Shown piece by piece: positions 3,495 through 36,105 of a DNA stretch of 40,402 nt. The stretch comes from a virus. Location: positions 1-40,402 of the IMG/VR virus record IMGVR_UViG_3300045996_002224; one strand, given 5' to 3'. The notes under the pieces are model-generated. The model ran no database searches. It had not been told where the DNA came from and saw only the letters and a program-made list of their open reading frames with translations. The translations under genes and the position numbers were made by a program. Position 1 is the stretch's first letter. Each line of letters starts with the position of its first letter.

Positions 3495-3560
3495 ATGAAC
3501 ACCAAAGCTAACAGGCGCACTGCGTCCAATCAACCCCAAAATGATAGGGGGATTGGCTGA
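3495..3560 (+). CDS. Possible 21-aa leader peptide before the primase-helicase
   Basis: A 21-codon frame (MNTKANRRTASNQ...) whose TGA overlaps the primase-helicase ATG (TGATG). An AAGG stands about 10 bases upstream. The overlap suggests translational coupling, but the peptide has no recognisable feature and could be chance. Confidence 0.3.
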   Translation: MNTKANRRTASNQPQNDRGIG

Positions 3561-6500
3561 TGGCGCGGTATGTCAAGACGGCGGTCGCGCGAAATGCCGT
3601 CAAGGGTCGCGAAGCCGAGATAATCCAGAAGTCCGGAGTTGACTGGAAACCCGGTCAGCGCGGACACATCACCTGTCCCTATAAGGACCACGGCGGTTCC
3701 GGAGACTGGCGGCTGGATGAGGCAAAGGGACTTTGCTTCTGTTCCAGTTCCTGCATGCCGAAGCCATCAAGTGTATTCGACCATTTGTCCAGGATGCGTG
3801 GCGACGACCCCCAGGCGGAAGACGCTTTCGAGCAGTCGAAGATCGAAGCCATGGAGTTGATTGATCGAACCGACCTGATCGAAGGCGCGGATAAAGCGGC
3901 AGGCAAGAGGAAGGAACGGCAGAAAAAGCCATGGCACGACTACTTCAAAACCAACGCCATGCTCAATCCTCCCGCCGACCTCCGCGACGATAACCTTGTT
4001 CGGACCTACCTAGCCGCTCGTCAGGGTGTTGCGCCTGAAGATGCCGCCTTACCCTCGTCACCTTGTGTCGGCCTGAAGAGACTTGATTTCCCCCATGCCT
4101 GCGAAGGCAAGGCCGCGGTGGAATGTCCCTGCGTCGTCTTCTTCATGGTCAACCCAAACGATCCCGACCAAGTGACAGGAGGAATCCGGGTCTACTTGAA
4201 CGAGGATGGAACCGCGAAAGCTGACCTCCGCCAACCGGACGGCACCCCGCACAAGGTCAAGCCGATGACGACCGGCTCTAAGCACGGCGGCGCGGTTCTT
4301 TACGGCAACCCGGCTGCGGCGAAGAAACAAGCTGTCTGCGAAGGTGTCGAAACTGGCGGGTCCATAGCGCTAGGCGCGCGGCATCGTGACGACGCCGATG
4401 TTTTGGTTGCTTGCGGCGGCACAGCCGAAAGTATGAAGAATATCCCGATAGTCTCGACGGCGGAGCGACTGTTCATCGCCTGCGACCGCGACGAGAGGCC
4501 GAGCGACAAGGGAAATGTCAGCAAGACAGGCGAAATAGCAGGTATTCATATTGCAGCCAAACACGCCGACCGTCTGCCTGTCCATCTGGCGCTGCCTCGT
4601 GCGCCTGGGTGCAAAGCCGACTGGAATGACGTGCAGCTAGAGGATGGTCCCGACGCCGTTTATGACGGGGTGTTCAACGCGCCGCAGTATAATGGTGGTG
4701 CAAATCAGCAATCGGATGCCGATACGGCGGTGCCGCCGTCGGAGCCGGCCATCGCTAAAGACCTGGGGTCGATCCTCAAGCTGTACCCGCTTCCCGACAT
4801 GCACACCGAAGAGCTTTCGTACGATGATCCCAAGGGGAACGGCGATTGGTGGATGCACCGCAAGAAGGCCAAGAAGAACGCGGATGACGAATGGGAAGAA
4901 ACCCATGTTCCAATCTGCACCCCGTTCGCAGTGACGCACCGCGTCATTCCGTTGGATGGTGGCACGGGTCCCGATTACCATCTCAGACTTGCCATCCAGG
5001 GGATGACGGGTCATCTCCACGCCGTCAACGTGCCTCGCGCCATCATCGGCAAGCCAGGATCTGCGGATATCAAGGCGGTGTTGTTCCGTGCCGGGTTGCG
5101 GACAGAGGGGGACGGCGACAGCGTTGCAGTCAACATCCTCAAGGCAGCCAACCCGACGAGGCAAATCAAGGTGGCGAGTCGTCCAGGCTGGCATAGGCTC
5201 GGCGGCACGGCGGCTCCTATATTCGTTGCGCCAACAGGACAGGTGATCGGCAACACGGAAGGTCAGGACATCGAGTTAGACGAGTCCGTGAAAATTGCTG
5301 AACCGCTCGCCAAGGCGGGGACCTTCGAGGAATGGAAGCGTATCACCAAAGTCATTGCCGGAATTGACAACGTCAATCACTGGCGCATCAGCTTGTGTGC
5401 CTCGTTTGCCGGAGTGCTGGTTGACCTCCTGCAAATGTCCACTATGGGGATATGCTTCACAGGCATGACCACGCGCGGCAAATCCACGGCGCAGCGTATC
5501 GCCACCGCGGCCTGGAGCAACCCCGACGAACAGAATGAAACCCTCAACCACTCGGCACTGACCACGCTCAATGCGGTCGAAGCCAAAGCGCAAAAGTCCA
5601 ATGGCTCCATCCTTGGCCTGGATGACTTGAAGAACCTAAAAGGGTCCGACGTGGCATCGCTGGTCTACAAGCTGGCGGGAGGTGTCGGAAAGGGTCGCAT
5701 GAAGTCTGATGCCTCTATGCGACCATCCATGAAGTGGAACACGTTCGTCCTCATGTCCATCGAGAAGACGCTTCAGCAGGCGATCGAGGAGGACGGCGGG
5801 GAATGGCTGCCTGGTGTCAGCGTCCGTATTCCGGATGTCAACGTGACCAGCGTAAGCGAAAAAGTCCCCGACCACTTCATGGATGACGTTCGGAAGATCG
5901 AACTCAATTACGGCCATGCCGCGACCGAATTCGTTCGCTGCCTGGTCGAAAGTGGACAGCATGAGGATCGGGACAAAATCCGGCAAAGCATCGCCACCTA
6001 TGCGCGCGAACTGGCGGACACTGAAAACGGCGAGACGATCCGCGCGGCAACCCCGTTCGCTACCGTCTGGTGCGCCGGGGTCATGGCTAAGGCGTTCGGC
6101 ATCCTACCGAATGAACTGAACGTAAAAGACGCCATCGCATGGGGATGGAAGCTGTTCCAGCACGGCAGCGAGGTTGGACACAACAGGCAGGAAGACGCAA
6201 TCGGAGTCCTTCGTGACTGGCTTGCAGCAAACTGGAACGTCAAGGTCGTTCACACATCGGTCTCGCATCCGAGAATTGCGCCAGAAGCTTGGTACGATGA
6301 CGAATACGTTTATATAAACGGCAAGTGCCTCTCGAACATCATACCCAACACTATACGCGTCATAGACTTCGCCGAACAGTTGAAGAAAGAAGGTATTCTC
6401 GTTCCTGACGCGAAAGCAGGCAAGAACAGCCACACGAAGGCGCGAACGGGATCGAAGAAGATCGGCTCTTGCTACTGGCTCAACAGACCTGAAATCGGCC

Positions 6501-6622
6501 AGCCTATCGATGCCGACGAGAACATGAATGAAGCCTACGAGGAGGCCAAAGCAGCCGGAGACAAGGAAGCGCTTAAGAAGCTGGAGGAGAATGTCGTCCA
6601 CCTTCGCAGCGGGAGGCGTTGA
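3560..6622 (+). CDS. Primase-helicase with CHC2-like zinc finger, Toprim and DUF927-type ATPase
   Basis: A 1020-aa replication protein. Residues 39-65 carry a Cys/His cluster (C39, H44, C59, C61, C65) like the DnaG CHC2 finger. A Toprim-like domain lies around 255-310: VCEGVETGGS supplies the catalytic Glu and IACDRDE the Asp-x-Asp. The second half matches the DUF927 helicase region, with Walker A GMTTRGKST near 634-643, Walker B-like GLDDL near 685, and GWH/RPGW and Arg-finger-like segments around them. It should synthesise primers and unwind DNA for replication of the element. AGGGGG is 8 bases before the start. It is followed by the gene that contains the iteron cluster, as expected for a replication module. 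Confidence 0.85.
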   Translation: MARYVKTAVARNAVKGREAEIIQKSGVDWKPGQRGHITCPYKDHGGSGDWRLDEAKGLCFCSSSCMPKPSSVFDHLSRMRGDDPQAEDAFEQSKIEAMELIDRTDLIEGADKAAGKRKERQKKPWHDYFKTNAMLNPPADLRDDNLVRTYLAARQGVAPEDAALPSSPCVGLKRLDFPHACEGKAAVECPCVVFFMVNPNDPDQVTGGIRVYLNEDGTAKADLRQPDGTPHKVKPMTTGSKHGGAVLYGNPAAAKKQAVCEGVETGGSIALGARHRDDADVLVACGGTAESMKNIPIVSTAERLFIACDRDERPSDKGNVSKTGEIAGIHIAAKHADRLPVHLALPRAPGCKADWNDVQLEDGPDAVYDGVFNAPQYNGGANQQSDADTAVPPSEPAIAKDLGSILKLYPLPDMHTEELSYDDPKGNGDWWMHRKKAKKNADDEWEETHVPICTPFAVTHRVIPLDGGTGPDYHLRLAIQGMTGHLHAVNVPRAIIGKPGSADIKAVLFRAGLRTEGDGDSVAVNILKAANPTRQIKVASRPGWHRLGGTAAPIFVAPTGQVIGNTEGQDIELDESVKIAEPLAKAGTFEEWKRITKVIAGIDNVNHWRISLCASFAGVLVDLLQMSTMGICFTGMTTRGKSTAQRIATAAWSNPDEQNETLNHSALTTLNAVEAKAQKSNGSILGLDDLKNLKGSDVASLVYKLAGGVGKGRMKSDASMRPSMKWNTFVLMSIEKTLQQAIEEDGGEWLPGVSVRIPDVNVTSVSEKVPDHFMDDVRKIELNYGHAATEFVRCLVESGQHEDRDKIRQSIATYARELADTENGETIRAATPFATVWCAGVMAKAFGILPNELNVKDAIAWGWKLFQHGSEVGHNRQEDAIGVLRDWLAANWNVKVVHTSVSHPRIAPEAWYDDEYVYINGKCLSNIIPNTIRVIDFAEQLKKEGILVPDAKAGKNSHTKARTGSKKIGSCYWLNRPEIGQPIDADENMNEAYEEAKAAGDKEALKKLEENVVHLRSGRR

Positions 6623-6624
6623 GC

Positions 6625-7413
6625 ATGTCCGGGAAGATCGACGTATTCGCCGCGCTTGATGCCGAACTGGCTGCATTCAGGGAATCAAAGAAGGCAAAAG
6701 CGGATATGGGGGAACAGACCGAGTCCATGGGTAGCCGGTTCCCCCACGGTTCCCCCGCCGGTTCCCCCTGCGGTTCCCCCTCTTTTTCTAATAATATCAA
6801 TGAATTAGAAGTAGGGGGAACCGGGGGAACTGAAATACACAAAACAAGAGATCATACGCGGGACAAATCAGACAATGCGGACACACCCAAATCTCACGTC
6901 ATAGATTTGTATCCATGTGTCCATCGTCTGAAAACGGTTCCCCCGGTTCCCCCAAACCGAAATCATCAATCAGATCAATCACTTGATAGGGGAACCGATA
7001 GGGGAACACGTCGGGGAACCGGACGTTTGGGGGAACCGGGTTTCCTTTTTCCTGAAGCCGCTTCTCTTGTCGGCAGTTCCCCTCTCGACCTCCAAGACTG
7101 GCGCGCCTGGATGGGTGAACGGTATCGGAGCAAGATGGCGAGTGGTCATTTCTCATCGCGCGATGCCGCTATGGTCTCCGTTTGGGAAGAAGCTCTCAGA
7201 GCTTGGCACATGATCAACGGCAAGGTGCCAGACAGGGACGGCTGCGGAGCCTGTGGGGAGGTTCTGGAGATGTGGGACAGTGCGATCACCGTCATTGACG
7301 GCGCACGCGTCCACGCGTCCCAGGACTGCCTTTACGACTACGGTGAGCGGTGCCGCGCAGCCGCTCATGAAGCGCTCGTTGCCATCGGCCTGAAACCGCC
7401 GCCGACCGAATAA
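6625..7413 (+). CDS. Origin-containing replication accessory protein with C-terminal zinc motif
   Basis: A 262-aa protein; ATG 6625 is preceded by GGGAGG and lies two bases after the helicase stop. The first 25 residues are helical. Residues about 35-135 are low complexity (Gly, Ser, Pro, Arg), because this DNA is packed with GGTTCCCC repeats in both orientations. The C-terminal domain (about 150-262) begins LQDWRAWMGERY and has CGACGE plus ...SQDCLYDYGERC, a likely zinc site of the kind seen at the end of phage primase-type proteins. Gene position and embedded iterons recall lambda O or RepC, where the origin lies inside the initiator gene. An initiator role is inference; no known initiator domain is recognised. 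Confidence 0.6.
   Translation: MSGKIDVFAALDAELAAFRESKKAKADMGEQTESMGSRFPHGSPAGSPCGSPSFSNNINELEVGGTGGTEIHKTRDHTRDKSDNADTPKSHVIDLYPCVHRLKTVPPVPPNRNHQSDQSLDRGTDRGTRRGTGRLGEPGFLFPEAASLVGSSPLDLQDWRAWMGERYRSKMASGHFSSRDAAMVSVWEEALRAWHMINGKVPDRDGCGACGEVLEMWDSAITVIDGARVHASQDCLYDYGERCRAAAHEALVAIGLKPPPTE
6737..7037. repeat. GGTTCCCC iteron cluster, candidate replication origin
   Basis: Plus-oriented GGTTCCCCC at 6737, 6748, 6760, 6772, 6936 and 6945. Reverse GGGG(G)AAC at 6814, 6823, 6989, 7001, 7013 and 7029. Spacing inside clusters is mostly 11-12 bp. An AT-rich stretch (6781-6811) separates the first inverted clusters and could serve as a melting site. The whole lies inside the coding sequence of the gene after the primase-helicase. 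Confidence 0.75.
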
Positions 7414-7450
7414 GCGCAACCCTTCCGCATAAGTGCAACATTGTGCTAGA

Positions 7451-7480
7451 ATGTTTCACAATGATACACTATGTAACACT
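7451..7480. repeat. 10-bp repeat array upstream of the portal gene
   Basis: Three consecutive 10-bp units, ATGTTTCACA, ATGATACACT and ATGTAACACT, followed by CATACAG. ATGTAACACT is the exact reverse complement of the AGTGTTACAT unit upstream of parA. The array overlaps the likely portal promoter (TTGTGC at 7441, GATACA at 7463) and ends about 20 bases before the start codon. Probable operator or partition site. Confidence 0.65.
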
Positions 7481-7501
7481 CATACAGAATTAGGAGCATG
7501 C

Positions 7502-8956
7502 ATGTTCGGGAATTATATTCACCCCGATTTCCAAAAGGCGTCGCCGGATTGGCATCGTATCCATTGCGCTATCGGTGGTAGGTCCGAGGTCCTGGCACAC
7601 ATCAGCGACTTCATGCCGATGACTGAGGCATTAAAGTCCGATCCTGGCATGCTTCGGATCTACGTCGAGCGCGCAGGCTGGTACGGTGGCGCGGCGAAAA
7701 CCTTGGATGCATGGGTCGGAGTGCTCTGCCGCAAGCCGCTGACCGTCGAGGTCCCCGCCAACTACCGCCGCCGCATGGAAGACATCGACGGGGAAGGAAC
7801 CGACATCGATGCATTCGCGCGGAAGATCGTCCGCGCTGTCTGCGGTTACGGAAGGTGCGGTATCCTGGTCGATGCTTCCAGTTCCGGGTTCAGCGCTAAC
7901 CCGAACACGCTGCCGTACCTCACAATGTACGGAGCGTCGAACATCGTATCGTGGCGGACACGCAGGTCGCCGACGCGCGGTCGCATCCTCGACCAGGTCA
8001 TCTTGCGCGAAACCAACGAAGTGCCGCATGAGTCCGGTTTCGGCGTGTCCTATCAGACGGTCTATCGCGTGCTTGAACTTGACGATCAGGAGCGCTATCG
8101 CATCCGAGTTTTCACGGAATTCGATGGCGGATTTGCGGAGGCAGATCCGATCTATCCCATCGTCCGTAACTACAACATGAACTACGTGCCGTTCGTCTTT
8201 GTTGGACCGAGTTCCACATCGCCTGCGATCGAGAAGTCTCCGCTCATGGAGGTTGTGGACGCGAACTTCTCACACTGGCTTTCGTCCGCCGATTTCCACT
8301 GGTCTCTCTTCTGGACCGCCTCACCAACGGTTGTCGTGACCGGCCTGTCGCCAGAAGACACGACACCGCTGCGGGTCGGCGGCGGCAGTTTTATAAAATT
8401 GCCAGCAGGCGCAACCGCTACCTACCTTGAGTCGATGGGTCCGGGTCTGCCATCGCTCCACGAGTCAATGCTGACAGAACAGCAGGCCATGGCAAACCTC
8501 GGCGCAAGCCTGCTGAACACGCCAAAGCGCGCGACCGAGACCGCAGAAGCTTTGACCATCAAGAGCAACGGGGAGTCTGCGTCACTGGTCACCATCGCCG
8601 ACACGGTCGGCAAGGCGCTGACACAAGCGCTCAAATTTGCCATCGACTGGGAGGGTGATCGCGGCAAGGTCTCCGTCACACTGAACAGGGACTTGGTCAA
8701 CGTGCGGCTCACCCCGGACGATATGCGGACGCTGGTTGCGATGGTCCAGGCCGGTCTGTTGAGCCTGGATGACTTCTACTACAACCTTCAAAGCGGCGAA
8801 ATTTTGCGACCCGGCGTGACTGTTGAAGACGCCAAAGCCGCCGCGCAAATGTCGCCGCCTGCGCTCTCGGTCGTACCCACGCCGCCGACCCCGATCACCG
8901 CATCCAGGCGCACTGCCAGATCCCGCGACAAGGGTCCCACCGACACCACCGAATAA
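7502..8956 (+). CDS. Phage portal protein, DUF4055 type
   Basis: A 484-aa protein started at MFGNYIHPDFQ, where AGGAG stands 5 bases upstream. It follows the DUF4055 portal pattern: an N-terminal YVERAGWYGGAAKTLDAWVGVLCRKP segment, IVRAVCGYGRCGILVD, a middle NYVPFVFVGPSS ... PLMEVVDANFSHW stretch, and ANLGASLL with helices towards the end. The length is normal for the family. Portals form the dodecameric DNA gate of a phage head and bind terminase; here no major capsid gene follows. The frame is intact, with no sign of decay. Its closest functional partners (terminase, MuF protein) lie 6-14 kb away on the other strand. Confidence 0.85.
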   Translation: MFGNYIHPDFQKASPDWHRIHCAIGGRSEVLAHISDFMPMTEALKSDPGMLRIYVERAGWYGGAAKTLDAWVGVLCRKPLTVEVPANYRRRMEDIDGEGTDIDAFARKIVRAVCGYGRCGILVDASSSGFSANPNTLPYLTMYGASNIVSWRTRRSPTRGRILDQVILRETNEVPHESGFGVSYQTVYRVLELDDQERYRIRVFTEFDGGFAEADPIYPIVRNYNMNYVPFVFVGPSSTSPAIEKSPLMEVVDANFSHWLSSADFHWSLFWTASPTVVVTGLSPEDTTPLRVGGGSFIKLPAGATATYLESMGPGLPSLHESMLTEQQAMANLGASLLNTPKRATETAEALTIKSNGESASLVTIADTVGKALTQALKFAIDWEGDRGKVSVTLNRDLVNVRLTPDDMRTLVAMVQAGLLSLDDFYYNLQSGEILRPGVTVEDAKAAAQMSPPALSVVPTPPTPITASRRTARSRDKGPTDTTE

Positions 8957-12176: not shown

Positions 12177-12923
12177 ATGCGCTTCTTTACCGGAATGCAT
12201 CAACCATCGGACGCTAACCGTGTTGATGCGGCCTTCATCTCAGTGAACCGCATCAGGAACCGCAAGTCCGGCTTTGCGGTCGGCGACTGGATCATGGATA
12301 GCGGTGCTTTCACGGAACTAGAGCGTCATGGAGCCTACCGTGAACCGCCAGAGGTTTACGCCGAACAGGTTAAACGCTGGTCGAGCAACGGCAACCTCCT
12401 AGCAGCTGTAGCGCAAGACTACATGTGCGAAAGCTGGATGCTGGCGAAAACCGGCCTGACGATACCTGATCACCAGCGACTGACGATAGAGCGGTATGAC
12501 GCTTTGACGGCCTGCGATACCGGAGGGGTTTACATCCTCCCCGTCATCCAAGGATACGCACCGCAGGATTACGTCAGCCACATTCGTCAATACGGCGCGC
12601 GGTTGGCTCCCGGCGCATGGGTCGGCGTCGGGTCGGTCTGTAAGCGCAACGGCGACCCGTCCGCTATCGAAGACGTGCTCATTGCTATCAAGCGGGAACG
12701 GCCAGACCTTCGGCTGCATCTTTTTGGTGTGAAGACTACCGCACTGAAATCCAAAGCAATTCGCGACATGGCTTTTACTGCCGACAGCATGGCCTGGTCT
12801 TTTGCCGCTCGAAGGGAAGGCCGCGACGCGAACGACTGGAAAGAAGCGGTTTCGTACGCCAACAAAATCAAGAACCAAGAGGTCAGGTTTTATCCCCGTC
12901 AACTCACGTTCACAGGGTTCTGA
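12177..12923 (+). CDS. DpdA/TGT-like 7-deazaguanine transglycosylase
   Basis: A 248-aa enzyme of the tRNA-guanine transglycosylase superfamily, closest in pattern to the short phage DpdA forms. WIMDSGAFTEL (DSGAF at 41-45) matches the TGT segment around the catalytic Asp (DSGGF). VYILPVIQGYAPQDYVSHI and GAWVGVGSVCKRNG follow the TIM-barrel phosphate/substrate strands. The zinc-binding CxCxxC tail of tRNA TGTs is absent. DpdA proteins insert preQ0 or a derivative into DNA in place of guanine, which can protect DNA from restriction; here that role is inference. No queuosine-pathway gene (queC, D, E, folE) is visible in the window, so a host-made base would be needed. GAGGT lies upstream of the ATG. 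Confidence 0.7.
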   Translation: MRFFTGMHQPSDANRVDAAFISVNRIRNRKSGFAVGDWIMDSGAFTELERHGAYREPPEVYAEQVKRWSSNGNLLAAVAQDYMCESWMLAKTGLTIPDHQRLTIERYDALTACDTGGVYILPVIQGYAPQDYVSHIRQYGARLAPGAWVGVGSVCKRNGDPSAIEDVLIAIKRERPDLRLHLFGVKTTALKSKAIRDMAFTADSMAWSFAARREGRDANDWKEAVSYANKIKNQEVRFYPRQLTFTGF

Positions 12924-13220: not shown

Positions 13221-13295
13221 CCTCGAAACCCCGCCGCACTGGCCTTTCCCGGATCGATGCGGCGGACTTCCGCAAATAGTATGAGGCAATTCGCC

Positions 13296-14111
13296 ATGAA
13301 AAACCATAGCCGTACCGTCGCCGCAAATCTGATGACATCGATTGCGACGCGATCGTCTTGGTCACGTGCCTGGATGCGCTCTCCTGCGGTCAACTGCCTG
13401 TCGAAGAAACCGTTTCGCGGGATCAATAGGCTCACTCTGACCCTGGCGGCAGCGCGCGAGGGGTGGAACTGCAACCGATGGGGGACCGATGCGCAGTGGA
13501 GCAAGAAGGGTTTCACCGTGCCTCGTGGGACCCCGGCGACGCGCATTTTAAGCATGGTCGAGGCAACCACGGCGGATACGGTTTATCTCCGGTACGGTGC
13601 CAAGCGGATAACTATGGTCAAGCCGCATGACGAGTTCGCGGCTATCCAGGCAGGGGACGATGACACGTGGCATCAGATCCAGCCGGACATGGCGCGCGTC
13701 ATCGATCTCGTCGGCGCGGCATTTGGCGGTAGGTTCAGCCTATCGGTCCCTGACCTGTCGGAAATCAAGTCCAACGATGTTGCCACCAAAAACGAACAGT
13801 ATTGCTCGCACCTGTGCCGAGCCGCGCTGCGCCTGACTATCGAAACTCAAATGCTCCCGCTTCTGCCGGAGGATATGACCGACCCTGACATCATCGGTCT
13901 CGCCGCTGAAATCGGAACAGCGTTCCTGCTCAACGATTGCGGCATGGTTCCCGAACGCATCCGAGACCAACCGACAGTGCGCCGCTGGTCCGCTCTGATG
14001 ATCGGCCAGTCGGAGGTTGCCGTGTTCGCTGCCGGACTGGCGCAACACGCGATCGACCGCATGTCGGCGGCGGCGGTAGCGGACAAGCTCCCGGCAACCA
14101 TAGCGGCTTAG
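13296..14111 (+). CDS. ArdC-like antirestriction protein with lost HExxH motif
   Basis: A 271-aa protein. Start at MKNHSRTV, with GAGG about 10 bases upstream. The N-terminal half follows the ArdC ssDNA-binding domain: KKPFRGINRLTLTLAAAREGW, W--DAQW-KKGF-VPRGT. The C-terminal half aligns with the ArdC metallopeptidase region: AAEIGTAFLLNDCG and a RRWSALMIGQSEVAVFAAGLAQHA helix. Where HELAHW is expected, YCSHLCRAA is found, so the zinc motif is missing. ArdC proteins protect incoming single-stranded plasmid DNA in the recipient. Here that function would depend on DNA binding alone. It is most likely an early-entry protection factor. Confidence 0.6.
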   Translation: MKNHSRTVAANLMTSIATRSSWSRAWMRSPAVNCLSKKPFRGINRLTLTLAAAREGWNCNRWGTDAQWSKKGFTVPRGTPATRILSMVEATTADTVYLRYGAKRITMVKPHDEFAAIQAGDDDTWHQIQPDMARVIDLVGAAFGGRFSLSVPDLSEIKSNDVATKNEQYCSHLCRAALRLTIETQMLPLLPEDMTDPDIIGLAAEIGTAFLLNDCGMVPERIRDQPTVRRWSALMIGQSEVAVFAAGLAQHAIDRMSAAAVADKLPATIAA

Positions 14112-17018: not shown

Positions 17019-17690
17019 ATGAGCGTCGTCGTCGTCGGTGGAATCAAGGGGGGAGTGGGTAAAACCACAGTTGCCATACATCTGGCAGTCATGCGCCAGA
17101 ATGCGGGACGCGCCGTTGTCTTGCTGGACGCGGACGAACAAAGGTCTGCGACGGAATTCGCGGAGCAACGTGCATCGCTTGGAAACGGCACCCTTCCCTG
17201 TCAGAAAGTGTCTGGAGCGAAAGACACTATCGAAGCGATCATCAACCTGGCCGAACGCTATGACGATGTGATCGTTGACGTTGGTGGCCGCGACACGCAG
17301 GCGCAGCGCGCGGCATTGCTCCGTGCCGATCTCGTGCTCCTACCGATGCCGCCGGGTAATTTTGACGCGTGGACTCTGCCGCAAGCGGAAACACTCGTGC
17401 GTGAGGTCCGGCAGGCCAACCCCGACCTTGACGCGGCTGCGTTCATATCTCGTGGATATGTTCGCGGAAAGGACAATCAGGAAGTTGCGGAAATGCTTCG
17501 TGCCTCGATGGTCCTGCGCTACATCGATGCTCCATTACTTGAACGCCGGGTCTATGTCCGTGCTGCGGGGGACGGTCTCGCCGTAACGGAGTACAGCACG
17601 CCTCCCGACGAGAAGGCTAAAGCTGAAGTCATGAGCCTGTACAAGGCCGTATTCAGCGCCGACGCCGCCACCGCCACCAGCGCCGCTTAA
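17019..17690 (+). CDS. parA: ParA-family partition ATPase
   Basis: A 223-aa protein with the deviant Walker A motif KGGVGKTT at residues 10-17. LLDADEQ follows as the A' motif and VIVDVGG as the Walker B strand. The length and the lack of an N-terminal HTH place it with the short type Ib ParA/ParF group, which relies on the partner protein for DNA binding and repression. GAGG precedes the ATG. The partner gene begins 10 bases downstream, and a 10-bp repeat array covers the promoter, the classic layout of an autoregulated partition operon that keeps a low-copy plasmid. Confidence 0.88.
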   Translation: MSVVVVGGIKGGVGKTTVAIHLAVMRQNAGRAVVLLDADEQRSATEFAEQRASLGNGTLPCQKVSGAKDTIEAIINLAERYDDVIVDVGGRDTQAQRAALLRADLVLLPMPPGNFDAWTLPQAETLVREVRQANPDLDAAAFISRGYVRGKDNQEVAEMLRASMVLRYIDAPLLERRVYVRAAGDGLAVTEYSTPPDEKAKAEVMSLYKAVFSADAATATSAA

Positions 17691-18070: not shown

Positions 18071-18838
18071 GTGACGCTAAAGCACATGGAATTGAGCCAC
18101 GAGGAATTTGTTGTCTACAGCAAGCGCGAAATCTCCAAAGCGGTCAGGGATGTCCCGAAATACTCCCGAAATTCCGCGGCGGCAAAGGTCGCATCGGGAA
18201 TGCTTGAACGCGTGATGGAACTCAACCGGATGGAGATCCCCGACTGCTCCAAGGGTTGCGCGTTCTGCTGTTACATCCAGACGGACATACATGCCGGGGA
18301 GGCTTTCGTGCTGGCCGAGGCTGTCAGGCGGATGCCAGACGATCAGCGGCAAGACGTGATGACCCGCCTTCGGTCAAATGCGGACACATTCTCCCGCATG
18401 TCCCTGACCGAACGGCAGCACGCGAAGATCCCATGTGCCTTGCTCGATCTAAAAACCAACTCCTGTTCCGTTTACGCCGACAGACCCGTGCATTGCCGCA
18501 AGTGGCATAGCTCAGACGTTCGCTGTTGCGAGATTGAATTTCACGAGCCGGGAACGGTCGGGACGCCGGTTGATGCGGTTTCGATGCGGCTTGGTTGGTC
18601 TGTCATACTTGGTTACTGGGAAGCTTCAAAGGGACCGTCAGGGGAGCTTCACCAGGGGGTTTTGATGGCGATTGATCCCGATGCTGAAAAGCGCTTTTGC
18701 CGTGGGGAGCCTGTCTTCGACGGTTGGTTGGCTTCCGATGCCAACGCGACGGAGGAAGAGCTTTCTGAAGTGAAACGGGAGAGCGCAGCACTTAACGATT
18801 TGGCAACGGGGTTGATGTCATCCAGAAAGCCGCTGTGA
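18071..18838 (+). CDS. YkgJ-type CxxxCxxCC metal-binding protein, copy 1
   Basis: A 255-aa protein, GTG start with AGAGG 10 bases upstream; an ATG five codons later is possible. CSKGCAFCCYIQTDI is the YkgJ/zinc- or iron-cluster motif (CxxxCxxCC). It is completed by C-LLDLKTNSCSVYADRPVHCRKWHS, in which CSVYADRPxxCR is the second family signature. The rest is helical, with GELHQGVLMAIDP near the C-terminus. The family chelates a metal, but its biochemical role is mostly unknown. A clear paralogue follows at 18960-19685, sharing motif order and the GELHQGVLMAIDP block. Both follow the parA operon. Confidence 0.75.
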   Translation: MTLKHMELSHEEFVVYSKREISKAVRDVPKYSRNSAAAKVASGMLERVMELNRMEIPDCSKGCAFCCYIQTDIHAGEAFVLAEAVRRMPDDQRQDVMTRLRSNADTFSRMSLTERQHAKIPCALLDLKTNSCSVYADRPVHCRKWHSSDVRCCEIEFHEPGTVGTPVDAVSMRLGWSVILGYWEASKGPSGELHQGVLMAIDPDAEKRFCRGEPVFDGWLASDANATEEELSEVKRESAALNDLATGLMSSRKPL

Positions 18839-18920: not shown

Positions 18921-18959
18921 TATTCGTCCTTTATCGAACGGTAATAGGGATTGCTAGGA

Positions 18960-19685
18960 ATGACAGGCAAAATATTGGCTACGGCAGAGGAATATATCGG
19001 CTCCATAAAACGGAGCATTCTTCGATTTTCGAGGACCGTTCCCAAGTATTTTAGAAGCTCGGAATCCGCTAAAATTGCATCAATGTTGACGGATGATGCT
19101 ATAGACGGCAACAAAACGCATAAGTTTGCGTGCTCTAAAGGTTGCGCATTCTGTTGTTTCATGCAGACCGACATATTCGCGGGGGAGGCGTTTGTTCTCG
19201 CCGCTGCACTGAGGGACATGCCTGACGCGCAACGGCAGGACATCACGACCCGGCTTCTCGAGAACTCGGCGGCGCTTGCCGGAATGTCGAACACGGAACG
19301 CCAGCGCGCGAAGATCCCATGCGCCTTCTTGGATTTGGATAAGCAATCCTGTTCAGCGTACGAAAGCAGGCCGACCGCTTGCCGAAGGTGGCACAGCCTT
19401 GATGTGAATGCGTGCAAAAATGGGGTCGCATGTCTGGACCCCTCGGCTTTTACTACCGCTCGCATGGTTGGGATGGCCTACCGTGAAGTGTCACGGGAGC
19501 CTGTCGGCGAGCTTCATCAAGGCGTGCTGATGGCTATCGATCCCGGTTCAGAAAGGAGTTTTGCCAGAGGCGAGCCAGTTTTTGCCGGATGGACTTCCAC
19601 CGTCGTCGGGATGACCGACGAGGAGAAGCAGACATCCAGAAATCTGGTGGATGGCGTAACGAAGAAGGCTTATGGGTTGCCGTAA
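18960..19685 (+). CDS. YkgJ-type CxxxCxxCC metal-binding protein, copy 2
   Basis: A 241-aa protein from ATG 18960; a TTG three codons earlier is an alternative, and neither has an ideal ribosome site. CSKGCAFCCFMQTDIFAGEAFVL and CSAYESRPTACRRWHS repeat the motifs of the previous gene almost exactly. The overall level of similarity suggests an old tandem duplication. The separating stem-loop implies separate expression. It ends before a strong hairpin facing the convergent terminase gene. Role unknown; metal-dependent modification of a protein partner is a guess. Confidence 0.72.
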   Translation: MTGKILATAEEYIGSIKRSILRFSRTVPKYFRSSESAKIASMLTDDAIDGNKTHKFACSKGCAFCCFMQTDIFAGEAFVLAAALRDMPDAQRQDITTRLLENSAALAGMSNTERQRAKIPCAFLDLDKQSCSAYESRPTACRRWHSLDVNACKNGVACLDPSAFTTARMVGMAYREVSREPVGELHQGVLMAIDPGSERSFARGEPVFAGWTSTVVGMTDEEKQTSRNLVDGVTKKAYGLP

Positions 19686-22374: not shown

Positions 22375-23308
22375 CACCCGCAACTCCTGCACGAAGGATT
22401 AGCAACATATCTGTTCTTTCGTCCACTTGAATCACGCTTGGACGCTGCCATAGGTCGCGCGCGATCTGGTCGATTGGTCTTCCCGCGTTCTCACCGATAA
22501 TCGGACCGATTAAGGAACCTCCTGACGTGAGTGCTGCCTGAGCAAGGTCGATGCCGATTGACGCCGTCACGAGGAGCGCGGTTGACAAGAAGTTGGACTC
22601 GACATCACCTGGAACGCCTGCGGCGCCGGTTGGGTCACCAGCAACGCCGTTCAATGTTACCGTGTCGTCGGCGGGGTATGGTCTGACAATTTCCAGGTTA
22701 GTGATTGGAACGCGCTTCTCTCCCTTTGTTGTTGATCCTCCGTAATCTGCCACGAGGTCGGACCCGGCCGGAAGGACAAGGCATGTGCCGCTTGTATCCC
22801 ACACATCGGCCGTGATCTTGGCCTTGAGGATGCCTGCCTTTTCAGTGACGACGCGCGTTAGACTGCGGACGGGAATGAAGGCTCCAGGAGGCAGCCAGCA
22901 ATCGCTTCCGGATTTTTTGAAATCTGACCTGTTGGCTTTCTTTGTCATCGCCGCTTCGATGATTTGCGGGTCAGCCTTGTGTCCGCCTGCGCCTTCCTTC
23001 AGGCCGCGCTCGAAAAAATCGTTCCTGGGAGCGCGCTGAGGCTGCGTTGACACTGTTGACCTTGCTCGCCGCTCCTCTTTTTTTGCTGGTTCCTCAGTTT
23101 GCTTGGGAAGGGTTTCGGCGACCTTCTCTTCGACATATCCAGCGGTCTGACCGACTCCTGTAATGCGGGGAACCGCGCCGGTTGCCTGCGCCTCCTCCTT
23201 GCCGCCGCTCATTGCGTAAGCGGTCAGGCCAGCGGCGGCGAGTCCGCCGATAGCCACAACCCGCCACACCCTTGCACCACCCGCCATGCTCTCCGGGGTA
23301 CGCGCCAT
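22355..23308 (-). CDS. trbI: TrbI/VirB10-like conjugation channel protein
   Basis: A 317-aa protein spanning the inner membrane. Short cytoplasmic N-terminus, transmembrane segment about residues 14-33, then a Pro/Lys/Glu-rich periplasmic stretch. The C-terminal beta-barrel domain has CWLPPGAFIPVRSLTRVVTEKAG, SGTCLVLPAGSDL and IARDLWQRPSVIQVDERTDMLLIL, as in VirB10/TrbI. It links inner- and outer-membrane rings of the type IV secretion channel. Shorter than most TrbI proteins (usually more than 400 aa), with the loss in the linker. GGAG precedes the start. It occupies the canonical last place of the trb order. Confidence 0.85.
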   Translation of the reverse strand: MARTPESMAGGARVWRVVAIGGLAAAGLTAYAMSGGKEEAQATGAVPRITGVGQTAGYVEEKVAETLPKQTEEPAKKEERRARSTVSTQPQRAPRNDFFERGLKEGAGGHKADPQIIEAAMTKKANRSDFKKSGSDCWLPPGAFIPVRSLTRVVTEKAGILKAKITADVWDTSGTCLVLPAGSDLVADYGGSTTKGEKRVPITNLEIVRPYPADDTVTLNGVAGDPTGAAGVPGDVESNFLSTALLVTASIGIDLAQAALTSGGSLIGPIIGENAGRPIDQIARDLWQRPSVIQVDERTDMLLILRAGVAGDDFRDH

Positions 23309-34607: not shown

Positions 34608-35170
34608 CGGAGCCTCCCCCGAGCTTGACGGCTGGACGTGATGCGCGACGCATCCCCGCGCTGCGACATCGCCTGAAACTTCATGGCGCCGACGCCTGCG
34701 ACGACGAGTAGGAGCAGCAGGCAGAGATAGACGGCATAGGTCAGGACCCACACGTCGGCAGGGTGCAAATCGTCGTACCAGAGCAGGAATTGACCGGGAA
34801 GGTAGACCGGCATCGGCAGACCGACATTGAACCCGCCGAGTGCTGGATGATGTCCGAAGAAGACGCCTAGGCCGAAGGTGATCGCCTCTACGAGGACGAG
34901 CCAGCCGATAACCATGCGAGCGATTAGGACTTTCATACTGCGTTGACTCCATATCATTGCTGTGGAAATCCGACGCGACAGCGACGGACTGCAAAACGGT
35001 ATCCGGTCGGTGAACTTGACCGGCCTTCCGTGATAGAGCGGCACGAGTCCGCAGACCGGCGACACGCGATGGACGTAGCGGAGCCACGCGACGCGATTGT
35101 CCTCCAGGCGGAGAGGTTTCCACGCGAAGCAAGGCGTTCCGAACAGGACCGCGACGCCGGTTTTCATCAT
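34604..35170 (-). CDS. Membrane protein, probable split N-terminal domain of TraG
   Basis: A 188-aa protein. Its start overlaps the relaxase stop (TAATG) with GGAGGG upstream. An N-terminal soluble part (1-80) is followed by a span at about 84-104, a periplasmic loop with Pro, Gly and His of some 35 residues, a second span at about 143-163 (VLTYAVYLCLLLLLVVAG) and a short basic tail. Two spans with a small periplasmic loop is exactly the VirD4 N-terminal topology, and the ATPase gene follows with a one-codon overlap. The soluble N-terminal part has no counterpart that I know. Confidence 0.6.
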   Translation of the reverse strand: MMKTGVAVLFGTPCFAWKPLRLEDNRVAWLRYVHRVSPVCGLVPLYHGRPVKFTDRIPFCSPSLSRRISTAMIWSQRSMKVLIARMVIGWLVLVEAITFGLGVFFGHHPALGGFNVGLPMPVYLPGQFLLWYDDLHPADVWVLTYAVYLCLLLLLVVAGVGAMKFQAMSQRGDASRITSSRQARGRLR

Positions 35171-35994
35171 TATCTTTCCCTCCCATCCATGACGGTTTCG
35201 CGCTCACGGCGGCGACGGTTTTCGTCCCTGCCGTCATCCCTGCCGCTGCGATCATCGACCACGTCGCGGGACCGTACCCGCTCACGGTCGCGTTCCCTGT
35301 CGTCGCGCTCGTCGGTCTGGTCCCGACCCTGATCCCGTGCCAGTCGGTTGCGCTCATCTTCAAGGCCGCGAGCGCCACGCCACCCGAGTTGATCCGTTGT
35401 CGCCTCTTCTGCGAACGATCTGATGTGGTGCCGTTCGAAGACCGGATGGAACGTCAAGTCACGGTCATTGACGACGCCACGCACGGCAACATGGACATGC
35501 CAGGAGCCGTCCTTTTGCTCTGCTCCCGCCATCCATCGGAAGTCCGCGCGATCGTCGGCGGGAAGCTGGCGGCGGACATTCTTCATCGTCTCGCGCGTCA
35601 CTTCCTTGACCTGATCGAGCGAAAGCCGATCGCCGTCCTGCGGATTGATCATCCAATGATGGATGAGACGGTCCTTCCCCCATTCATCGGCCAGGCCGTC
35701 TTTGTCCCGTTCATCGAGGTCCCGTTCCCGGTCGAAGACGCGGCCTTCTTTAGCGACGTAGCCGAGCGTTGCCGACACGCTTGAACGGTACGCGCCGCGC
35801 GCCTTGTCATGAGTCTTGACCTTGACCCGCACCTGTCGGGACTGCGCATTCGGCGGTTTGGCTGCGCGGCCTGTGCCGACCTGTTTCGCCTTCCGGACCT
35901 TGTAGGAGCCGCTGCCGCCGCCTTCGGACGGTACAACCGCATGCATATCAATCGGGTCTTCGTCGGCGTTCAGTAGCTTAGTGTATTTCGGCAC
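35170..35994 (-). CDS. Relaxase-like mobilisation protein
   Basis: A 274-aa protein. GTG 35994 is preferred: GAGGG stands 9 bases before it, while the ATG codons at 36030/36027 overlap the promoter -10. The core has SVSATLGYVAKEGR, then HHWMINPQDGDRLSLDQVKEVTRETMKN, then WMAGAEQKDGSWHVHVAVRGV. This recalls the MobA/VirD2 relaxase fold, with the HVHV pair as metal ligands and HHW... as the preceding helix. The C-terminal 70 residues are almost pure Arg/Asp/Glu. The protein is shorter than most relaxases. It should nick oriT and lead DNA into the channel; the catalytic Tyr is not securely identified. Confidence 0.65.
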   Translation of the reverse strand: MPKYTKLLNADEDPIDMHAVVPSEGGGSGSYKVRKAKQVGTGRAAKPPNAQSRQVRVKVKTHDKARGAYRSSVSATLGYVAKEGRVFDRERDLDERDKDGLADEWGKDRLIHHWMINPQDGDRLSLDQVKEVTRETMKNVRRQLPADDRADFRWMAGAEQKDGSWHVHVAVRGVVNDRDLTFHPVFERHHIRSFAEEATTDQLGWRGARGLEDERNRLARDQGRDQTDERDDRERDRERVRSRDVVDDRSGRDDGRDENRRRRERETVMDGRER

Positions 35995-36024
35995 CTGTCG
36001 TTTCCCTCTTCCATCTGACAGCCT

Positions 36025-36055
36025 CATCATGTAACATACTTTGTAACAAGTCAAT
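36025..36055 (-). promoter_or_regulatory. Relaxase operon promoter with TGTAACA-N5-TGTAACA operator
   Basis: Half-sites at 36030-36036 and 36042-36048, a perfect pair. On the minus strand TTGACT, 17 bases and CATGAT form a strong promoter whose spacer is filled by the pair. It drives relaxase, membrane protein, traG, RHH protein and trbB. Confidence 0.72.
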
Positions 36056-36057
36056 GT

Positions 36058-36105
36058 GTATGAAGACGTAAGACAAAACCTCCTCATTTTGAGGAGTTTT
36101 CATAC
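36058..36105. terminator. Nested inverted repeat upstream of the relaxase: terminator or oriT part
   Basis: Inner stem CTCCTCA (36080-36086) with TGAGGAG (36090-36096), flanked by A and T runs. Outer arms GTATGAA (36058-36064) and TTCATAC (36099-36105). The inner hairpin is a good bidirectional terminator. The outer repeat next to a relaxase gene also fits an oriT recognition element; no nick-site consensus was identified. Confidence 0.5.

Follow-up and report, generated by a model that had tools for sequence, protein, structure and literature searches.

The window analyzed here, a 40,402-nucleotide stretch of viral DNA, was found to encode portal, large terminase and head morphogenesis proteins (by Pfam and PHROG) as well as a ParA-like partition protein at 17019-17690. 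Judged by sequence, these structural genes and the ParA-like protein suggest that the element is a tailed phage, possibly a phage-plasmid. A forward-strand gene at 3560-6622 encodes a primase-helicase, and directly behind its stop codon lies a forward-strand ORF of 262 aa (6625-7413). The ATG of this ORF at 6625 (a TTG at 6619 is also possible) is preceded by a good ribosome-binding sequence, GGGAGG, at 6611-6616, 8 nt ahead of the start codon. Several other genes of the window were noted. A DpdA-like protein (deoxypurine in DNA, E = 4e-38) is encoded at 12177-12923 and suggests 7-deazaguanine DNA modification, by which the G-rich iterons described below might be touched. A protein with the N-terminal domain of the anti-restriction factor ArdC is encoded at 13257-14111, and two neighbouring proteins at 18071-18838 and 18951-19685 each carry a CxxCxxCC zinc/iron-chelating domain. 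On the reverse strand, 35170-36087 gave weak relaxase-domain and rolling-circle initiator matches, with the Pfam ones below the curated cut-offs; if real, these matches would point to an additional function in replication or mobilisation.

The 5' half of the 262-aa ORF holds an array of short repeats (iterons) that is in frame and free of stop codons. Exact GGTTCCCC was detected in 10 copies within 6737-7037 (6 forward and 4 reverse), compared to an expectation by chance of 1.33 in the whole 40.4 kb. Only one further exact copy exists in the window, at 23167, and a total of 11 was attained in no shuffle out of 100. When the first base was left free, GTTCCCC was present in 14 copies at 6709-7082, that is, the 10 exact copies and 4 NGTTCCCC variants. 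The array is built of two alike modules, each with forward sites, an AT-rich stretch and reverse sites. In the first module (6737-6831), exact copies on the forward strand at 6737-6744, 6748-6755, 6760-6767 and 6772-6779 are followed by an AT-rich stretch at 6781-6811 and, on the reverse strand, by an exact copy at 6815-6822 and the variant AGTTCCCC at 6824-6831. The second module (6936-7037) consists of exact forward copies at 6936-6943 and 6945-6952, a second and weaker AT-rich stretch at 6957-6988 (about 70% AT), and reverse-strand sites at 6989-6996, 7013-7020 and 7030-7037 (exact) and 7001-7008 (variant TGTTCCCC). A one-mismatch search, which revealed the variants, also placed TGTTCCCC at 6709-6716 on the reverse strand and AGTTCCCC at 7075-7082 on the forward strand, the latter being the outermost and least certain site. 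TGTTCCCC is the consensus iteron of phage phiAH14b.

Two iteron sets were thus found to flank an AT-rich region (forward 6737-6779, reverse 6815-6831), and this arrangement is repeated at 6936-7037. The cluster lies directly 3' of the helicase gene, with its first site 87 bp past the stop codon, and is the only repeat cluster in the window; a second cluster or origin element could lie beyond it, since the linear record may be a fragment. The stretch at 6781-6811, the proposed DNA-unwinding element, had the lowest unwinding energy of all 31-bp windows in the 40.4 kb (rank 1 of 40,371) and reaches 83% AT across the 30 bp at 6784. These results bear out much of what a sequence-only reading of this DNA had described: at least twelve copies in both orientations (14 with a mismatch at the first base allowed, 10 exact), an AT-rich stretch amid them that is indeed less stable than any other 31 bp in the window, and the location of all copies in the gene that follows the primase-helicase. 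The 11-12 bp spacing which it had noted is part of the pattern, as the copy-to-copy spacings were chiefly 9, 11, 12 and 17 bp. GC skew, which it had put forward as a check, was weak across the window and was not used as evidence. Rfam and tRNA searches gave no matches.

The repeats occupy all three codon phases and both orientations of ORF 6625-7413, and the peptides that they encode differ (RFPH, GSPx, GGTx, xVPP and RGTx). As three phases and both orientations yield different peptides, the protein sequence cannot be the selected unit, and the repeated unit is DNA, not protein. Consistent with this, the codon signature and GC3 were normal ahead of the repeats (0.295 and 65%) and past them (0.150 and 66%, in the same frame), while across the repeats, again in the same frame, the signature was lost (-0.096 and 42%). 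The sequence-only reading had taken the low-complexity residues as a sign that the DNA rather than the protein is constrained, and on this point it was right. The coding signature outside the repeats suggests that the 262-aa protein is real, and we infer that the ORF is translated through the array. The protein had no Pfam or PHROG match and belongs to no known family; a search for relatives found none, nor did it reveal an initiator family.

The product of 3560-6622 was assigned by Pfam to DUF927 (E = 6.9e-37) and Toprim_3 (E = 6.5e-8) and by PHROG to the DNA primase/helicase class; it is predicted to combine Toprim_3, a DUF927 AAA+ helicase and a C-terminal winged-helix-like domain. Its AAA+ helicase is homologous to SaPI Rep and Cch: when compared to PDB sequences by phmmer, the protein matched SCCmec Cch (5dgk, E = 1.1e-13) and SaPI Rep (8tch, E = 6e-8), and a profile of the helicase family matched SaPIbov1 Rep (8tch, E = 1.2e-41, spanning the helicase and the C-terminus) and 5dgk (E = 1.5e-37). 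Homology extends to the dsDNA-binding domain of Rep, based on the profile match to the end of 8tch and on a Foldseek match of a low-confidence model. An AlphaFold2 model of the last 157 residues (864-1020) had a mean pLDDT of 56, with about 70 in its best part and an E-H-H-E-E order of elements; the full-length model was unusable (pLDDT 33). Among 350,542 PDB chains, the first Foldseek match of the C-terminal model was SaPIbov1 Rep 8tch (probability 1.00, TM 0.50), a match that is weak by E value (7e-3). The domain at about residues 878-980 (6191-6499, forward strand) is proposed as the iteron binder from this model and Foldseek match. By sequence and model, the upstream DUF927 primase-helicase is likely the initiator, acting through this C-terminal domain.

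The region behind the helicase gene was compared in a sample of 78 DUF927-type loci from proteobacterial genomes, plasmid pMNOD05, phiAH14b and this window. Each locus was examined for a cluster of a lineage-specific octamer within -200 to +900 of the helicase stop, with a same-sized region inside the gene as the control. By this approach, a significant cluster of the locus' own octamer was detected around or just after the helicase stop in 50 of the 78 loci, compared to 1 of 78 for the control; the other 28 loci were without a significant cluster. The 50 include at least four pairs that represent one locus twice or near-identical copies (L268/L316, L286/L317, L307/L315 and L329/L330). Pseudomonas phage phiAH14b carries GTTCCCC ten times in the non-coding gap behind its DUF927 gene, and in L252, a viral contig that encodes a DUF927 helicase, GTTCCCC occurs 11 times at the matching position. 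Viral contigs gave no match to a single-protein helicase search. Six relatives were retrieved with a two-row alignment; one of 12 rows had too much diversity to serve as a query. Among the nearest viral relatives, with a helicase identity of about 32%, 3 of 114 columns were variable in the iteron cores versus 66 of 330 in the spacers (p = 1.6e-6), with no codon-position pattern to the variation. On this sequence comparison, the iteron cores in these relatives are under purifying selection, and the layout recurs in relatives. In one locus (L297; 4041 bases, reverse strand), the iterons lie within the 3' end of the DUF927 helicase frame itself and encode a low-complexity C-terminal tail.

Embedding of the cluster in the next gene is likewise not confined to the window. 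In 17 of 46 clusters, the sites fall inside a forward ORF whose start is close to the helicase stop or a short way past it; some of these ORFs may not be real genes. Six of the embedding ORFs (L271, L272, L277, L289, L318 and L325) were linked by sequence similarity, mostly in a C-terminal motif past the iteron-coded linker, and embedding recurs among homologous ORFs in six elements or more. The linkers track the iterons, as L272 has VPP repeats with GTACCACC and L277 has VAP repeats with GTAGCACC. The ORF of the window is alike in plan to the six linked ORFs, with no detectable similarity to them. This comparative evidence lends good support to the earlier proposal that a replication origin lies within a coding sequence.

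The octamers of different loci were found to have a core in common. GTNNC was present in the octamer of 36 of 45 loci, compared to an average of 5.8 and a maximum of 15 for letter-shuffled octamers; the annotated type 1 repeats of P4, TGTTCACC, also fit this core. In a small sample of clusters at D5/VapE helicases, GTNNC was present in 3 of about 5. Iteron sequence tracked similarity of the helicase C-terminus weakly (r = 0.14, p = 0.026), and coupling of the two beyond the helicase core was not significant (partial p = 0.20). Taken together, the loci somewhat favor a general reading in which the DUF927 initiators of phages, plasmids and islands in proteobacteria recognise octamers that differ by lineage but are formed around a single degenerate core (GTNNC, most often TGTNNC(A/C)C, also in P4 TGTTCACC), with origins placed repeatedly in frame in the linker of the next gene and iteron changes rewriting the linker in concert.

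Similar sites were also observed at other helicases. DUF927 was absent from the first 44 viral contigs with GGTTCCCC, and the mixed-cluster contigs among these carry other helicases, e.g., DUF7146/Toprim and Prim-Pol/VapE. Many viral contigs (L009, L018, L022, L024, L026, L030, L037, L041, L044 and others) have 8-12 GGTTCCCC sites in both orientations. In the two of these that were tested (L022 and L030), the sites lie in the 3'-terminal part of the gene for a primase (DUF7146/Toprim_3, about 975-990 aa). Here, an identical octamer accompanies another helicase family and is once more within coding sequence. GTTCCCC clusters were noted at or just past the 3' end of DnaB N-terminal plus AAA_25 genes in L251, L254 and L257. 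Triple-tandem GGTTCCCC was rejected as a specific marker, as both orientations were present in only 5 of 119 genome loci and a control octamer was equally common.

The arrangement of the window was compared to known replicons, with the SaPI origin layout taken from published descriptions rather than from SaPI sequences. In SaPIs, the C-terminal domain of Rep recognises iterons directly downstream of the rep gene, and Cch contains DUF927 (PMC7581432). PICI origins consist of an AT-rich region flanked by two iteron sets and support plasmid maintenance (PMC6092414). The window is similar in having a helicase, here proposed to be self-loading, with a putative C-terminal DNA-binding domain and short iterons directly 3' of its gene around an AT-rich region. 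It differs in that the element carries portal, terminase and head genes and thus is not a PICI satellite, the helicase is fused to a Toprim-type primase, and the proposed origin is in frame in the next gene. The helicase family is that of SCCmec Cch (5dgk). For SCC elements, origins had not been identified, and one was proposed only for Cch2, which is of a different helicase family (PMC7581432).

P4 resembles the window in its octamers TGTTCACC, which occur in both orientations, agree with GGTTCCCC at 6 of 8 bases and have GTNNC in common, and in its crr region, which immediately follows the alpha gene on the 3' side and overlaps with a predicted CDS. P4 alpha is a primase-helicase of the D5-like family, not DUF927. 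No Pfam match to D5_N or Pox_D5 was found in the helicase of the window, which has DUF927 instead, and the window is without the D5/P4-alpha-type helicase of a P4-type replicon. In lambda O / ori and RepC plasmids, origin repeats are also inside coding sequence, and the sequence-only reading had likened this locus to them with a different protein. The likeness stands as to an origin inside a gene; as to the initiator it probably does not, since in lambda and RepC the gene that holds the origin encodes the initiator, whereas here the product of the preceding gene is most likely responsible. By analogy, P4 crr and the SaPI/PICI origins appear to be the closer parallels.

The repeats are very probably where this phage (perhaps phage-plasmid) starts DNA copying. 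With high confidence, we interpret the array as an iteron-type origin in a tailed phage that may be a phage-plasmid, an origin which the DUF927 primase-helicase of 3560-6622 would bind and melt and onto which it would load itself. The primase-helicase is predicted from sequence and model to bind the NGTTCCCC iterons by its winged-helix-like C-terminal domain. It would then assemble, probably as hexamers, on the iterons that flank 6781-6811, melt this stretch, and load itself as the replicative helicase, with the Toprim part priming synthesis; replication would thus start at the array. As the origin is in frame and stop-free in the next gene, the same DNA would supply binding sites and also encode a low-complexity peptide linker. 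In kind, this origin belongs to the SaPI/PICI/P4 type already known, with a setting and layout that are new and a mechanism that is inferred.

An unlikely alternative is that the cluster is needed in cis for copy control or loading, with the start point elsewhere. This is the arrangement of P4, where crr, with its similar octamers, is distinct from ori: by annotation, crr is required in cis, while the start of replication is at an ori of its own, some 4.5 kb distant. By contrast, the single cluster of the window contains the least stable 31 bp, and in PICI and SaPI the downstream cluster is itself the origin. It is very unlikely that the 262-aa protein is an initiator that binds repeats in its own gene, in the manner of lambda O or plasmid RepC. 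Although the position of the repeats and the coding signature outside them fit such a protein, its lack of Pfam, PHROG or other relatives speaks against it, as do the recurrence of the cluster after many DUF927 helicases with no such ORF (intergenic in phiAH14b) and the SaPI-Rep-like C-terminal domain of the helicase. A partition centromere or operator array in place of an origin is most improbable: tandem repeats serve also as centromeres and a ParA-like protein is encoded, but the cluster lies directly behind the helicase, as in 50 of the 78 DUF927 loci, and some 10 kb away from parA, and no promoter-like site was found in 6400-7600. The chance that the array is a fortuitous or protein-level low-complexity repeat is negligible, for although triple tandem octamers are common (73 viral matches for the control octamer), the differing peptides from three phases and both orientations contradict it, both-orientation clusters were present at 21 of 44 GGTTCCCC loci versus 2 of 73 control loci, and the mixed-orientation pattern was found in 28 contigs versus 5 for the control octamer.

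Assignment of the array as the origin of this element would mean that a layout said to be unique to PICIs also occurs in an element carrying phage structural genes, and would provide natural cases of one DNA stretch that serves as both an origin and a protein-coding linker. With GTNNC as a shared core, recognition by the C-terminal domain of the helicase can be tested directly. For many phages, plasmids and islands that are poorly annotated, the origin may be predictable from sequence alone, just behind the DUF927 gene.
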